Of a stretch of DNA of 32,674 bases, positions 27,016 to 32,674 are shown one piece after another. A program made the position numbers and the translations under genes. The stretch comes from Candidatus Sabulitectum sp. (lineage in GTDB: Bacteria; Fermentibacterota; Fermentibacteria; Fermentibacterales; JCC-6). Under the pieces are notes generated by a model, which was not told the DNA's origin, did no database searches, and saw only the letters and a list, made by a program, of their open reading frames with translations. Each line of letters starts with the position of its first letter. Within the stretch, counting starts at the first letter, position 1. The stretch is taken from positions 1-32,674 of the forward strand of contig JAGLDY010000069.1 in assembly GCA_023145375.1 (NCBI GenBank), in the 5' to 3' direction.

Positions 27016-27453
27016 GTGCTACAGGTCTCAAGCCGGAGGTTTCTGATAGGAACTGCACGAACCCTGAAGGAAACCGTTTCCGGAACACCTGTTCTGGAGA
27101 AGCAAAGCCGGTTTCTGGCCTGTGGCACCCCCTTTTCATCAGACAGCGACCAACCCACCATACTGAGATCACTCATCAGGCAGTTCAAGATGAAAAAAGC
27201 AAGCCATTTGAGCTGGGCGATCCGTCTCTCTGACGGCACTGAGCTCAAGAGTGACGGTGGAGAATCCGGCTCCGGCAACTGCATTCTTGAAGTAATGAGA
27301 AATTTGAGTGCTGAAAACTGTCTGATCCTTGTGGCTAGATGGTACGGAGGCAAACACCTGGGAGGTCTCCGGTTCCGTATCTACAGAAACAGCACAAAAG
27401 AGTTACTCTCTGAGTTTTCTTCCATTCTGAAGAAAGAGGGTCCCCATGGATAG
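27016..27453 (+). CDS. Truncated IMPACT/YigZ family (UPF0029) protein, start uncertain
   Basis: The frame encodes the N-terminal UPF0029 domain: LEKQSRFLACGTP (28-40), then HLSWAIRLSDG and CLILVARWYGGKHLGGLRF. The usual GEPSGTAG box is weak (GGESGSGNCI). Typical YigZ has about 200 residues, with a C-terminal DUF1949 domain; here that domain is absent and the protein ends near residue 145. No ATG lies at the start. GTG 27016 lacks a ribosome-binding sequence, while a good one (GGAGG, 27035-27039) points to CTG 27043 or ATA 27046. The stop overlaps the TIR gene start by 8 bases, so the two are coupled. IMPACT proteins affect translation control in eukaryotes; the bacterial role is poorly known. 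Confidence 0.7.
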   Translation: MLQVSSRRFLIGTARTLKETVSGTPVLEKQSRFLACGTPFSSDSDQPTILRSLIRQFKMKKASHLSWAIRLSDGTELKSDGGESGSGNCILEVMRNLSAENCLILVARWYGGKHLGGLRFRIYRNSTKELLSEFSSILKKEGPHG

Positions 27454-29650
27454 ACAGTTCTTTATCTCTCATTCAAGCGTGGACGCCCGCCTGGCGGAAG
27501 CCCTGGTGGAAGAGCTGGAGTCCAGTGGATATAAATGCTGGATAGCCTCCAGAGATGCTTCTGAAGGACCTGACTCAAAGAAGCCTGTAAACTCAGTCAT
27601 CCTTGAATCTGCAGCGGTTCTACTGGTGTTCACGGAAAATACAGCGGATTCCAGCCGCATCAGAAGTGAACTCGACATTTCAGCTAATCAGAGGATTCCC
27701 ATTATTCCACTGAAGTTCCGTGAAGCACCGATCTCGAAGAGTATCAGTTACTACACACACTCCCGGAAATGGATAGACTGCACAGTTCATCAGGCAAATA
27801 CCAGGGAGATAATGAAAACCCTTTTTGCTCTGGCGAAAGAACCGCCACCCAGAGAACAGCCCGTCTCCTCCAGGGGGAAAAAGCGGAAGTGGATCCTTGC
27901 TTCAGTCCTTCTCTTTGTCACAGTGATAACCTCTCTGCTGTTGGCACTGAAAACGGTTAATACTGACCCCGCAGACCTGATCAATGTTGCGGTGGGAGGC
28001 AGAGATTCATGGGACTATGCCTCCAGTATCAATCCAGGAACGAACGGAGGTATGATTGTAACAGGAGCATGGGACTGGGGTTACTGGAGTGAGATATGGG
28101 TGACTCAATTTGACAACACCGGCAGACTGATCTTCAGCTGGTCCGATTCCATTTCAGGCGATTGTAAGCCGGTTTCAATACCGACATATCAGGGTGGCAG
28201 TATAACTGTCTACGCCAGCTTCTCTGAAGCTGATGAAAGAGGCTTTACGTTCAGAGCTGTTAATCTGACAGACCAGGGCAGCATTCTCTGGGAAACTGAG
28301 CAGAGAATAGACCACCCTGGAGGAGACCAGCCTTCAGTAGCTTCCCTCCACTGGCTTCCCGGGGGAAGGGCTGTAGCTTCATTCAGTCTGAGATCATCAT
28401 CGGATAACTTGTACTCAGCTCATCTGGCAAAAATTGATGCGACAAACGGCTCAATGGAAGTGTTCACAATACCCGGCAACATAAGAACTGGTTGTACGGC
28501 AGTATCGGCTGTTTATGAACGGATCCTTCATGTGAGCGAAGGTGAAGGCAATGGCGGAGATGTTATCAGGGTACTGGACTGGGAAGGACGGCAGAACGAC
28601 TTGATCCAACTTGATCCGGGGGTGGTAGTAAGTTGCGCTGAATACAGGAGAGATAACACTTTGATCCTCTCCGGCTTACCCGTTAACGGCTCTGGAACGG
28701 TGTGGACAGCCTGCTTCTCTGAAGATATGGAAATGATATGGGAAATAGCATTCAATGAGATAATCCTCAGCGAGCTGGCAGATATGACCATTCTACCTGA
28801 TGGCTCCATTCTTCTGGCTGGCTCGATCGACTCCTCACAAACAGGTGAATCTGACGGAGTAGTTCTCCGCCTTGATAAAGAAGGCAAACTCCTTTGGAAG
28901 ACAGTAATTGATGAAGAAGGAGACAATCACATTCTATCAGTTGCAACCCGGGAAGATAGAACTATCCTTCTAGCGGGCACAACAACAGCTTTCGGTGACA
29001 GAGATGCCTGGTTCATGGAGATGACCCGGGATGGGCAATACAGCAGCACTTGCGCCCTGGGGATAGAGTTGCTGACTGAAGGCTGGGAAGCTGGTTTCAT
29101 AGAACACTCTTTGTGGAGTGTGGTGTTGAATGAAGAAAGCCCTCAGGTCTTAATAGAGGACGACTCTACAGGCAACTTTGCTCTGGTGAACTGTAATGCT
29201 CCCGTTGTTCTGAATGAACCTGTACCACTGGTTCCCGGCCTGTGCTTTTCCGCTGAAATATCAGTGCCGTCTGAAACAGGGGCAACAGAAAGCAACTGGA
29301 TATCTATCGGTACTGCCGAACACGGTCTTTCAACAGCGCCTCAGGGGTCATCAGACTGTGAGCTACGATGGAACTACTCACCAGAACAGGAATTCTCAGC
29401 CACTTTTGGAAGATCAGCCTCATGTTCCCTCCTGACTGTTCAGGAATCCCAAATTATCACCAGATCGGAACCGCAACTGTTCTCAATAGAGAACTGCTCT
29501 GATTCCGTTCTCTTCCTGATCAATGATAGTCTGCTGTGGGCTCTACCGTCTGAAAACAATCCTGACTCTCTAAAATTCTTCATCAACGGCAGTTCACCGT
29601 CAGTTCCTCACATGGTGGACAACGTCAGGATATACTTGAGAAAATGGTGA
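27446..29650 (+). CDS. TIR-domain membrane protein with extracytoplasmic propeller
   Basis: The 734-residue protein has three parts. Residues about 4-115 form a TIR_2 domain: FFISHSSVDARLAEALVEEL, GYKCWIASRD, SAAVLLVFTEN, then SSRIRSELDIS with Glu75 at the position of the catalytic glutamate in NAD-cleaving TIR domains, and IPIIPL. A basic KKRK leads into one membrane helix (about 149-168), which places the TIR in the cytoplasm. The outer part (about 180-560) has repeated blades with phrases such as LRLDKEGKLLWKTVIDEEG and LLAGTTTAFGDRDAWFMEM, a delta-60/PQQ-like propeller, followed by a jelly-roll-like C-terminal domain. This is the layout of a transmembrane receptor. TIR domains act in phage defence and signalling; whether this one does is inference. 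Confidence 0.85.
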   Translation: MDRQFFISHSSVDARLAEALVEELESSGYKCWIASRDASEGPDSKKPVNSVILESAAVLLVFTENTADSSRIRSELDISANQRIPIIPLKFREAPISKSISYYTHSRKWIDCTVHQANTREIMKTLFALAKEPPPREQPVSSRGKKRKWILASVLLFVTVITSLLLALKTVNTDPADLINVAVGGRDSWDYASSINPGTNGGMIVTGAWDWGYWSEIWVTQFDNTGRLIFSWSDSISGDCKPVSIPTYQGGSITVYASFSEADERGFTFRAVNLTDQGSILWETEQRIDHPGGDQPSVASLHWLPGGRAVASFSLRSSSDNLYSAHLAKIDATNGSMEVFTIPGNIRTGCTAVSAVYERILHVSEGEGNGGDVIRVLDWEGRQNDLIQLDPGVVVSCAEYRRDNTLILSGLPVNGSGTVWTACFSEDMEMIWEIAFNEIILSELADMTILPDGSILLAGSIDSSQTGESDGVVLRLDKEGKLLWKTVIDEEGDNHILSVATREDRTILLAGTTTAFGDRDAWFMEMTRDGQYSSTCALGIELLTEGWEAGFIEHSLWSVVLNEESPQVLIEDDSTGNFALVNCNAPVVLNEPVPLVPGLCFSAEISVPSETGATESNWISIGTAEHGLSTAPQGSSDCELRWNYSPEQEFSATFGRSASCSLLTVQESQIITRSEPQLFSIENCSDSVLFLINDSLLWALPSENNPDSLKFFINGSSPSVPHMVDNVRIYLRKW

Positions 29651-29660
29651 TCCGCAGGAA

Positions 29661-30902
29661 TTACTGACTAGCCGGATATTTCTTTACAATAAGACAGGAG
29701 TTGCCTCCACCGAAACCGAATGAATTACTCATGGCGGCATTCAGCTCCATAGATTCAGCACCATCAGTTACATAGTCGAGGGGGCAGTCAGGGTCAGGTT
29801 CCCGGTAGTTGATCGTTGGCGGGATCCTGCCTGTTGATATACTCTTAACCATCGCTGCGAACTCAACCGCTCCGGCAGCTGCCATAAGATGGCCGATCAT
29901 TGATTTATTCGAGCTTATCTTGAGTACAGAAGCATGCTCACCGAATACCTTCAACACCGCTGCGCTCTCACATTTATCATTCAGCACTGTAGATGTGCCA
30001 TGAGCATTTATGTAACCGATCTCTTCCGGATTCAAACCGGCATCTTCAAGAGCCACAAGCATAACCCTGATCATACCACTGCTCTCCGGATCAGGGGCAG
30101 TAAGGTGGTAAGCATCAGCAGTATTGCCATAGCCAGCAAGCTCAGCGTATATCCTGGCTCCCCGCTGAACAGCATGCTCCAGATTCTCAAGAACAACGAT
30201 ACCGGCTCCCTCGCCCATGATAAACCCATCCCGGTCCCTGTCAAACGGCCTGGATGCATTTTCAGCAGACTCACTGGGAGTCATCGACCTGGTGGAACAG
30301 AAAGCTCCGTATGGAAGTGGAGAGATACAGGCTTCCGAACTGCCTGCAAGTATAAGATCAGCATCACCTCTCTGAATTATCCTGAAGGCGTCACCAATTG
30401 CATTTGACCCTGTAGAACAAGCTACCGATGGAGCAGAAAGAGGACCTTTAAAGCCGTACTTTATGGAGACCAGGGCAGCAGACATGTTAACAAGCATTCT
30501 TGACACAAGGAACGGGCTTAAACTGCGAGGGCCCTTCTCGGAAAGCTGTGAGAATCCTTCATCCAGAGCTTGAGCACCGCCTATCCCGGAGCCTATAACA
30601 ACTCCAGCTCTATTTCCGTCAAAAGAGCTCAATCCTGAATCTTCCATTGCCATGGCTGATGCCGCCATGCTGAACTGCGTGAACCTGTCCATACGCCTGG
30701 CAGATTTGCTGTCGATCCAGTTCTCAGCCTGGAAATCCTTAACCTCTGCAGCCAGCTTGGACCGGTAGTCTGTTACATCAAAATGTGTTACTCTTGCAAT
30801 GCCATTCTTACCCTGAAGCAACCCAGCAAAGAAATCCTCTATGCCTGTTCCAATGGGCGTAACTGCACCAAGACCTGTAACAACAACTCTGTGTTCATTC
30901 AT
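29661..30902 (-). CDS. fabF: 3-oxoacyl-ACP synthase II
   Basis: FabF elongates fatty acyl chains by condensing malonyl-ACP with acyl-ACP. The 413-residue length is standard. The catalytic cysteine lies in SVACSTGSNAIGDAF (C162), with the two histidines in NAHGTSTVLND and KSMIGHLMAAAGAVE, and a C-terminal NSFGFGGGNSCLIVKK. The N-terminal RVVVTGLGAVTPIG is typical. AAAAGGAA precedes ATG 30902. It stands alone on the minus strand, with no acpP, fabG or fabD next to it, and converges on the TIR gene with 10 bases between. Confidence 0.96.
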   Translation of the reverse strand: MNEHRVVVTGLGAVTPIGTGIEDFFAGLLQGKNGIARVTHFDVTDYRSKLAAEVKDFQAENWIDSKSARRMDRFTQFSMAASAMAMEDSGLSSFDGNRAGVVIGSGIGGAQALDEGFSQLSEKGPRSLSPFLVSRMLVNMSAALVSIKYGFKGPLSAPSVACSTGSNAIGDAFRIIQRGDADLILAGSSEACISPLPYGAFCSTRSMTPSESAENASRPFDRDRDGFIMGEGAGIVVLENLEHAVQRGARIYAELAGYGNTADAYHLTAPDPESSGMIRVMLVALEDAGLNPEEIGYINAHGTSTVLNDKCESAAVLKVFGEHASVLKISSNKSMIGHLMAAAGAVEFAAMVKSISTGRIPPTINYREPDPDCPLDYVTDGAESMELNAAMSNSFGFGGGNSCLIVKKYPASQ

Positions 30903-30960
30903 GAATAGAAATTCCTTTTAGAAACGGTACTACAAAGAAGAACTCACAAATATTGTTCCT

Positions 30961-30989
30961 TAGATAATTAACTCTCGCCATTTTTGCAA
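30961..30989 (-). promoter_or_regulatory. Candidate promoter of fabF
   Basis: On the minus strand, TTGCAA (30989-30984) is followed by exactly 17 bases and TATCTA (30966-30961), about 58 bases before the fabF start codon. The -10 resembles the TATCTT boxes of the sigma-gene promoter and the 15017-15044 promoter. Prediction by pattern only. Confidence 0.45.
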
Positions 30990-31040
30990 GAAGAAGCAGT
31001 GGGAAAACCTAAGCTCCCCACTACTACTACATTTCAGGAA

Positions 31041-32674
31041 CTATCTAAGCACCGTCAGGCTTCTCATGGAATTCAGACCCTCACCCTGGAACTTCAGGAA
31101 GTAAAGACCACTGGAAAAAGTAGAAGTTTCCAATGTGAGATCATGACTGCCCGCCTCCAGCAGTTCATCACACAGTGTTTCAACTACTCTTCCATGAATA
31201 TCGTAAACAACAACTTCCGTAATTCCAGGTGCGGTAGTGGTAAAGCTGAGAGAAGCCTGATCCACACACGGGTTAGGGAAAACAGTTGCCTCCTGTGACG
31301 GAACGGCACCACCGCTCATACCTGTGCCATCATGCTCCCATAGGGTAACTGTGGCATCAGCAAAAGTCTGCAGGCCCTGATGTCTATCACCGCTGAATAC
31401 AATGTACCAGTCGTCTGTATGAGGTGCATAGAACCATATCTCGCCTGCACTCTGCCCCTGGACAACCTCATAACAATCAAATTCCCCGCCAGCCTGGTAG
31501 AGGTCCCAGTTGGCTGAATCAACAATAAAGAAGTCCGCTGTACCATCTTCAAGGAGTTCAGCATATTCACTTCTGGGATTTGCGTAGTAGTCTCTTCCAT
31601 TCATTATGTCAGCTGGAAGCTCGTAATCCACCTGGATGAGATACTTCGTCCAGGATCCCTCACTGAGCTCATTCATCTCCAGCTCCGGCATCAGACCGGA
31701 AGGGCTCCAGTCAAAGAAGTAATCCTGGTCAGCTACGCTGTTAACGATGACCTCTTCGAATCCCCCTCCCCCGAAACTGCCCAGAGAAGATGAAATGTTC
31801 AGGTAGAAATTCTGATTGTTGCCAAGGGTGAATGTGATCTGCCCATTGCGGTCAGTCTGCCCCCAGGTTCCCCTGTATATGGTACTTGTCTGCCACCCTT
31901 CACTGGCTATTTGAACACTGGCATTGTCAACAGGTACACCGGCTGAATCTGTAACGGTAACTGTGAAGGTACATGTCTGGGAGTAGAATGCAATGGCGTC
32001 CCAGGTAAATCCGTCATTACGCCAGCTCCAGATGCAGCTGCATTCCTTGGAACCGCCGTAATCTGCATCATAAGCGCAGTTCGGATTGTTGACAGTATCA
32101 ACATACCATCCACCCCAGGTGCCATCCCACCAGATCTCGCACCACACATGATCCTCGTTGATGTCCATGGCGCAGACTGTGGGAATCAATGCGGTTCTGG
32201 CTGCTGCGCATAGAAGATCCTGCGTCTCTCCGCAGTTCCCGTTGTGTTCATGGGCAATGATATTGGGCTGAATAGGTCTGTTTCCGCTGGCTCCGTCCGC
32301 CAGAGTGGCACGTGTCCATTTACTGAGTATCTCAACAGCCTGCAGAGTATCGTAAAACGCCGGGGTGGTTGACCATCCCCAGCTCCTTGTCTGCTCGTCC
32401 CAGAATACCATTACATTCTCGTTAAGTACATCGTTCAGGATCGGGTAACCTGTATCATCCATGTCCCAGAGGTACTGTCGCCAGAATTCATCGTAAACGG
32501 TGGAATCGTTCTGGGGTTTCTCGTCGGAAACCTTAGGCATCACCACATAGTGATAGTAGATGTCCTTTGGTATCTCCACCCAGACAGTATCTGAACCAAC
32601 AATAGTGTTGTACTCTGTGGTACTGTAGTAGTCCGTACCGGGATAGTCATTCACATTCACATAACTCAGGAATG
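31041..32674 (-). CDS. Secreted transglutaminase-like protein with type-A sorting C-terminus (partial)
   Basis: The reading frame is open to the right edge, so the N-terminus is missing; about 543 codons are visible. Counting from a GTG at 32660, a transglutaminase-like cysteine-peptidase core carries the triad NCGE (C143), DHVWCE (H171) and YVDT (D188). After it come a strand domain resembling bacterial Ig or carboxypeptidase-regulatory folds (FTVTVTDSAGVPVDNASVQI), another beta-rich region, and a C-terminal domain with VFPNPC, VVVYDIHGRVV, LSSGLYFLK-like FSSGLYFLKF and a final SLTVLR. The last domain is the Por/type-A sorting type used by type IX secretion in Bacteroidota-related phyla. The protein is probably exported and surface-linked. 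Its target is unknown. Confidence 0.85.
   Translation of the reverse strand, partial: FLSYVNVNDYPGTDYYSTTEYNTIVGSDTVWVEIPKDIYYHYVVMPKVSDEKPQNDSTVYDEFWRQYLWDMDDTGYPILNDVLNENVMVFWDEQTRSWGWSTTPAFYDTLQAVEILSKWTRATLADGASGNRPIQPNIIAHEHNGNCGETQDLLCAAARTALIPTVCAMDINEDHVWCEIWWDGTWGGWYVDTVNNPNCAYDADYGGSKECSCIWSWRNDGFTWDAIAFYSQTCTFTVTVTDSAGVPVDNASVQIASEGWQTSTIYRGTWGQTDRNGQITFTLGNNQNFYLNISSSLGSFGGGGFEEVIVNSVADQDYFFDWSPSGLMPELEMNELSEGSWTKYLIQVDYELPADIMNGRDYYANPRSEYAELLEDGTADFFIVDSANWDLYQAGGEFDCYEVVQGQSAGEIWFYAPHTDDWYIVFSGDRHQGLQTFADATVTLWEHDGTGMSGGAVPSQEATVFPNPCVDQASLSFTTTAPGITEVVVYDIHGRVVETLCDELLEAGSHDLTLETSTFSSGLYFLKFQGEGLNSMRSLTVLR

Follow-up and report, generated by a model that had tools for sequence, protein, structure and literature searches.

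Gene content and order at the locus

The window, that is the whole stretch of 32,674 nucleotides analysed here, carries a gene (27446..29650, + strand; ATG start, 734 aa) whose product combines a TIR domain, one membrane helix, a propeller and a C-terminal domain. The start of this receptor gene is overlapped over 8 nt by the end of a YigZ/IMPACT family gene (UPF0029; 27016..27453, + strand), recognised with Pfam and also found beside the receptor gene in relatives, a conserved neighbour outside the system. On the other side, Pfam and gene order identified a conserved beta-ketoacyl synthase gene (29661..30902, - strand), followed by a 138-bp gap (30903..31040) and by a transglutaminase-like T9SS cargo gene (31041..32672, - strand) truncated by the contig end. 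In relatives the synthase gene lies between a window-type and a second, cassette-type TIR receptor gene. The gap corresponds to the site where this cassette-type receptor and its exported proteins are located (order in L026, L033, L042, L031 and L043); the cassette is absent in the window. The TPR-S gene of relatives is situated just past the transglutaminase gene, whose other part, like the expected next gene, is missing from the window's assembly. Assembled from several contigs, the gene order of the genus reads: TPR-S, transglutaminase/T9SS, cassette-type TIR with exported proteins, ketoacyl synthase, window-type TIR, YigZ, FAD oxidase and aconitase family.

The genes on either side of the receptor gene (YigZ, ketoacyl synthase, T9SS-type transglutaminase, FAD oxidase, aconitase-family subunits and a glmS-like gene) are housekeeping genes in conserved order. 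No known defence gene was found among the window neighbours, and window genes with Pfam matches were metabolic, pilus or housekeeping genes. The first-pass annotation had suggested looking for enrichment in defence islands; the neighbourhood spoke against it, and we rejected a defence-island reading of the locus. A scan for promoters and terminators near the receptor gene gave counts close to chance.

Two related loci (L045, G012:C156, 2575-17332, with L070, 3320-13108) carry, where the window gene has its syntenic site, six tandem TIR-helix genes and after them a further TPR-S protein. Four of the six encode a distant version of the receptor ectodomain, and the remaining two TPR-like or helical C-terminal parts. 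TIR receptors seem to accumulate at this site, as at a hotspot.

Domain architecture of the receptor

The TIR_2 domain covers residues 5-115 (27458..27790, + strand) and matched PF13676 with 58.5 bits against a curated cut-off of 28 (E 1.2e-15); it belongs to the only TIR_2 gene of its genome. A stop-transfer charge cluster, KKRK (residues 145-148; 27878..27889, + strand), precedes on the cytoplasmic side a single transmembrane helix (residues 149-167; 27890..27946, + strand), which AlphaFold2 also modelled as a helix over exactly these residues. Hydropathy analysis of the whole protein gave segment 147-173, placed after GKKRK, as the sole strongly hydrophobic one (Kyte-Doolittle peak 2.72).

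The beta-propeller (residues 180-526; 27983..29023, + strand) was modelled with pLDDT 70-90 throughout by AlphaFold2, supplied with the window protein and sequences from four related loci. The model resembled the propeller of CylK (Foldseek, E 3.8e-15) and a profile of the region retrieved the same protein (E 1.4e-6), while Pfam and other profiles gave weak matches to DUF5122 / delta-60 repeats, with DUF5122 at 451-481. With the window protein alone as query, a PDB sequence search returned no match; the CylK match needed a profile. The receptor thereby shares its propeller type with CylK and with the DUF5122 / delta-60 repeat propellers. In the receptor, however, the propeller serves as ectodomain, whereas the enzyme CylK has neither a TIR nor a membrane helix.

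The C-terminal domain (residues 540-734; 29063..29647, + strand) constitutes a homology unit, since it matched end to end the exported proteins of about 230 aa encoded in sister cassettes (hhalign, probability 94%, E 8.5e-8). The first-pass annotation had called this part jelly-roll-like: the existence of a domain was upheld, whereas AlphaFold2 gave no confident fold (pLDDT about 30), so the jelly-roll name should be taken as provisional. Structure prediction of the window protein provided a TIR-like core, the helix and the propeller but left the C-terminal part without a confident model. The TIR, the KKRK signal, the single helix and the propeller proposed by the same annotation were all recovered. 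Over its length, the window receptor scored 1063.8 bits (1-745) against a profile of the full TIR - helix - propeller - C-terminal domain architecture.

Predicted topology

We then examined on which side of the membrane the two halves would lie. In nearly all homologues positive charge lies on the N-terminal side of the helix, and the C-terminal flank is negative or close to neutral. In addition, both outer domains have exported relatives and so belong to exported families: those of the C-terminal domain (about 230 aa) have signal-type hydrophobic segments at their N terminus, and those of the propeller (491-497 aa) carry signal peptides at the start and T9SS-type tails at the end. Because of these flank charges and exported sister proteins, a topology with the TIR in the cytosol and the propeller and C-terminal domain outside is well supported as a prediction. 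The protein would thus have the layout of a single-pass TIR receptor (cytosolic TIR, one helix, extracytoplasmic sensor), in agreement with the receptor layout initially suggested. For an inverted protein exposing its TIR, we found no evidence beyond the general ability of signal-anchor helices to adopt either orientation; positive charges on the TIR side, exported sisters of both outer domains and lack of a signal peptide ahead of the TIR make such an orientation extremely improbable.

The exported propeller proteins with T9SS-type tails (L093-L100) occur in several copies per genome.

The conserved glutamate of the TIR domain

The first-pass annotation placed a catalytic glutamate at Glu75 (codon 27668..27670, + strand). 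Alignments located this residue at the alpha-C Glu position: it was unchanged in 22 of 22 aligned TIRs and, by profile alignment, fell on the WCxxE-type Glu of TIR-STING, Cat1 and TLR6. The position assigned was therefore sound, but the catalytic motif around it is incomplete. In most bacterial TIRs the NADase motif is WxxxE, with Trp four residues before Glu (PMC11374754); here Trp is absent and position -4 is occupied by Arg71, by Arg, His or Asn in the window clade and by Gln throughout the sister clade. Moreover, a survey of TIR sequences reported the alpha-C Glu, critical for NADase activity, in more than 70% of all TIRs, including non-enzymes (PMC7075850). For this reason Glu75 is weak evidence of an NADase, and with the Trp of WxxxE missing, any NAD cleavage by the window TIR is putative. 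The isolated TIR was modelled by AlphaFold2 with a modest pLDDT of 60; Foldseek found it similar to AbTir (8g83, top match, probability 1.00), PdTIR, TcpB and SARM1, with a best E of 1.4e-3 for this modest model.

A membrane-tethered abortive-infection NADase, in which an envelope signal such as phage adsorption or injection directly triggers NAD depletion with no partner, would agree with the invariant Glu75, with NAD-consuming AbTir as nearest model and with the patchy distribution of the cassette described below. The missing Trp (PMC11374754) and a Glu that is not diagnostic alone (PMC7075850) speak against it, as does the absence of a defence-island context. Similarly, PADLOC and NCBIfam matches concerned a partial TIR only, with weak similarity to ThsB (PADLOC, E about 0.005) and an NCBIfam score far under the cut-off (ThcB4, 18.9 bits against 220). 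Finally, the TPR-S partner conserved in sister loci points to signalling rather than to direct killing. We judge this direct NADase clearly unlikely.

Sister receptors are encoded in a cassette

Most sister copies of the receptor sit in a cassette composed of the TIR receptor gene, 1-4 tandem genes whose exported products share homology with the C-terminal domain of the receptor itself, and a gene for a TPR-S / GHR-motif / cyclase-like protein. The receptor gene and the first exported-protein gene overlap by 7 nt in most relatives, as measured from longest-ORF starts; short gaps separate them in L035 and L044. In other genera the exported-protein genes are followed by that of a protein of about 605 aa, in which TPR-S lies at the N terminus, GHR and PRFP motifs mark the middle domain, and the C terminus is cyclase-like. 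TPR-S was recognised with E values from 2e-12 to 5e-21, while the cyclase-like part of the cassette-type protein had no Pfam cyclase match. A PDB search with the partner returned TPR-like and chance matches only.

The GHR and PRFP motifs led us to suspect a SLOG identity for the middle domain; as Pfam gave no match at E<=10 and PDB profile matches were at chance level, we assign the domain to no family. At L037 (2420-2929) this conserved domain of the TPR-S protein displays GHR, PRFP and GADILFHE motifs and matched no Pfam family or solved structure. A TPR-S relative with a cyclase match (PF00211, E 1e-9) is present at L062 (G015:C64, 5367-9018), where a gene for a TIR-helix-TPR protein overlaps that of a protein joining TPR-S, the GHR domain and a class III cyclase that looks intact.

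From gene content, the sister cassette looks like a ready-made ligand-receptor-effector set. The exported protein is a putative ligand because of its homology to the receptor's C-terminal domain and the gene overlap, the two observations on which this assignment rests. Of the two, the cassette found in relatives holds more interest than the gene of the window.

Distribution in related genomes

The annotation had called for a search for the same domain order in related genomes. The full architecture was conserved in 16 of 59, at 34-56% identity over full length, and is thus no chance arrangement. With copies cut by contig ends counted, 9 of the 12 remaining genomes in the genus possessed it, as did 8 genomes from other genera. 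Conversely, TIR_2 above cut-off was absent in all 19 cassette-free genomes tested (19/19), and no plasmid-borne relatives of the receptor were found.

Among the 47 genomes outside the genus, the receptor, the exported protein and the cassette-type TPR-S protein occurred in the same 8 (G014, G017, G019, G025, G028, G031, G034 and G040) and nowhere else; these co-occurrence counts are non-independent by relatedness and linkage, and hence no P value is claimed. The set is split across contig ends in G028 and G034, and the TPR-S match is in two pieces in G017. Linkage of receptor and TPR-S genes is not strict, since the latter lies on the opposite strand about 3 kb off in G040 and some kb from the receptor in the window's genus. 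A more distant, cyclase-type TPR-S protein was found in G015 and G036.

Other TIR proteins were observed in the course of this survey. TIR, one helix and an FGE-sulfatase (C-type-lectin-like) domain are combined in L021 (568-1965), L074 (6913-8595) and L078 (3600-4883); in these proteins the same stalk carries a different outer module. L073 (7246-10965) encodes a TIR protein of 1239 aa in which a cyclase-like part, an NTPase and TPR repeats were distinguished by eye, and TIR ORFs of similar length (1221-1344 aa) are present in several genomes of the phylum.

The cassette has a patchy distribution and is missing from most family members having exported propellers, an observation that bears on whether the receptor is immune at all. 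A housekeeping envelope sensor, monitoring for instance type IX secretion cargo or surface integrity, would fit with the phylum's propeller family being mostly exported proteins with T9SS-type tails, with the adjoining T9SS-type transglutaminase and conserved housekeeping genes, and with purifying selection on an ectodomain that is not fast-evolving (see below). It accords poorly with the patchiness just described and with the presence of two conflict-associated modules. TPR-S is one such module, associated with conflict systems. TIR is the other (PMC7159879). We hold this housekeeping role to be rather unlikely. Between conflict and envelope surveillance, the former draws support from the patchy distribution and the pairing of TIR with TPR-S, but not from the housekeeping surroundings or the lack of diversifying selection; we regard defence as a plausible role.

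The window copy is a paralogue outside the cassette

Window-type copies formed one genus-specific, monophyletic clade (support 100/100). In alignments, TIR positions 44-46, 71, 74 and others set this clade apart from every cassette copy: W44, A45, E46, Q71 and N74 were lost only here, while all cassette copies keep W44-A45-E46 and Q71. In the window's own genome, the exported paralogue of the C-terminal domain had no match and TPR-S gave only a short TPR-region match (E 1.4e-9); the expected TPR-S site falls past the contig end, in the assembly gap. A window-type receptor was the only one found in G000, G004, G009 and G010, while G007 and G008 carry window-type and cassette-type receptors at the same locus.

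The window receptor and its nearest homologue gave dN/dS values of 0.16-0.28 by domain, so the gene is maintained by purifying selection. Within the window clade the TIR showed the highest conservation and the strongest constraint, with dN/dS of 0.08-0.16, whereas the propeller had 0.19-0.28. No diversifying selection on the ectodomain was seen in pairwise comparisons (dN/dS 0.08-0.28, some pairs being near dS saturation).

Since the architecture is kept and BB-loop-region residues are lost, we infer that the window gene is a paralogue outside the cassette, probably representing a branch of this receptor type that has diverged or become modulatory. Alternatively, it might be a decoy that no longer signals, or a tuner, acting on the cassette-type receptor and retained for ectodomain binding. 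Loss of W44, A45, E46, Q71 and N74 in this clade alone, cassette partners not seen in the window's own assembly (with the expected TPR-S site in the gap) and the shared locus in G007 and G008 are in line with such a decoy. A TIR more constrained than the propeller, a Glu75 that a decoy would not need and the four genomes with the window type only argue otherwise, and we regard it as very unlikely. A diverged or modulatory branch remains our reading of the window copy.

Comparison with known systems

The layout recalls, by analogy, animal Toll/IL-1 receptors, which similarly have one helix, a cytosolic TIR and an extracellular sensor; the window TIR profile matches TLR1/2/6 TIRs, and the sister cassette co-encodes a candidate exported partner. 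Unlike in these receptors, the TIR is N-terminal, a propeller and C-terminal domain replace LRR or Ig modules, and no MyD88-type adaptor was seen. As the animal Toll-like receptor family is recognised by an LRR ectodomain and a C-terminal TIR, and the protein has neither, we would describe it as Toll-like by layout and not as a Toll family member, with no claim of common descent for the architecture.

As in Thoeris (ThsB TIR - ThsA), the TIR of sister loci is paired with a separate cytosolic protein that may sense its signal. In contrast to Thoeris, the TIR is here membrane-anchored with an outer sensor, the partner is a TPR-S / GHR-motif domain / cyclase-like protein, and ThsA, SIR2 or macro-domain proteins are lacking. 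Thoeris membership was rejected: no ThsA-type effector adjoins the gene and ThsB matches are weak and partial.

TPR-S (PF20308) partners lie beside or near TIR-helix proteins in Fermentibacterota, and on a Caballeronia plasmid genes for a TIR and for a TPR-S-like cyclase likewise lie no more than 6 kb apart. The present case differs in that the TIR belongs to a receptor bearing an ectodomain and that Pfam gave no cyclase match for the cyclase-like part of cassette-type partners.

On a plasmid of Tolypothrix sp. PCC 7712 (L089, 7399-10614), a TIR - helix - WD40 protein (WP_264267989) lies beside a short cyclase-domain gene. The order TIR, one hydrophobic helix and propeller is thus not unique to the receptor. 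The Tolypothrix protein differs by a WD40-type propeller, by lack of such a C-terminal domain and by the absence of annotated exported paralogues adjoining. We read its architecture from sequence here and found no published account of it. Similarly, the literature searched, mostly outside subscription journals, yielded no account of a bacterial receptor with the order TIR, one helix and propeller, nor of the present cassette. To our knowledge, characterised bacterial TIR systems are all triggered inside the cell.

A model for the receptor and its cassette

With medium confidence, we propose that the protein is a single-pass membrane receptor of a Fermentibacterota TIR cassette, in which a periplasmic sensor would cluster cytosolic TIRs and signal to a TPR-S partner. 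The periplasmic propeller and C-terminal domain would recognise a ligand in the envelope. For sister loci, the best candidate for this ligand, or for a co-receptor, would be the co-encoded exported protein, alone or complexed with an outside trigger. Binding would cluster receptors and thereby assemble their TIRs in the cytosol. The assembled TIRs would in turn act on the TPR-S / GHR-motif / cyclase-like cytosolic protein, either by a nucleotide (NAD-derived) product or by contact and recruitment.

More tentatively, and with considerable doubt, the cassette may be a bacterial Toll-like ligand-receptor-effector system which makes its own exported ligands or co-receptors, derived from the receptor-tip domain. 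These would convert an external event into TIR assembly, and a TPR-S protein with a cyclase domain turned non-catalytic would read it.

The window's own copy, as an orphan of the cassette system, limits what this locus can reveal. If the proposal is true, Fermentibacterota would possess a transmembrane signalling system comparable, in bacteria, to that of Toll, with a periplasmic sensor, exported partners and a cytosolic TPR-S protein. The cassette is small (3-6 genes) and could be moved to a laboratory strain, which would make envelope-sensing TIR signalling directly testable.
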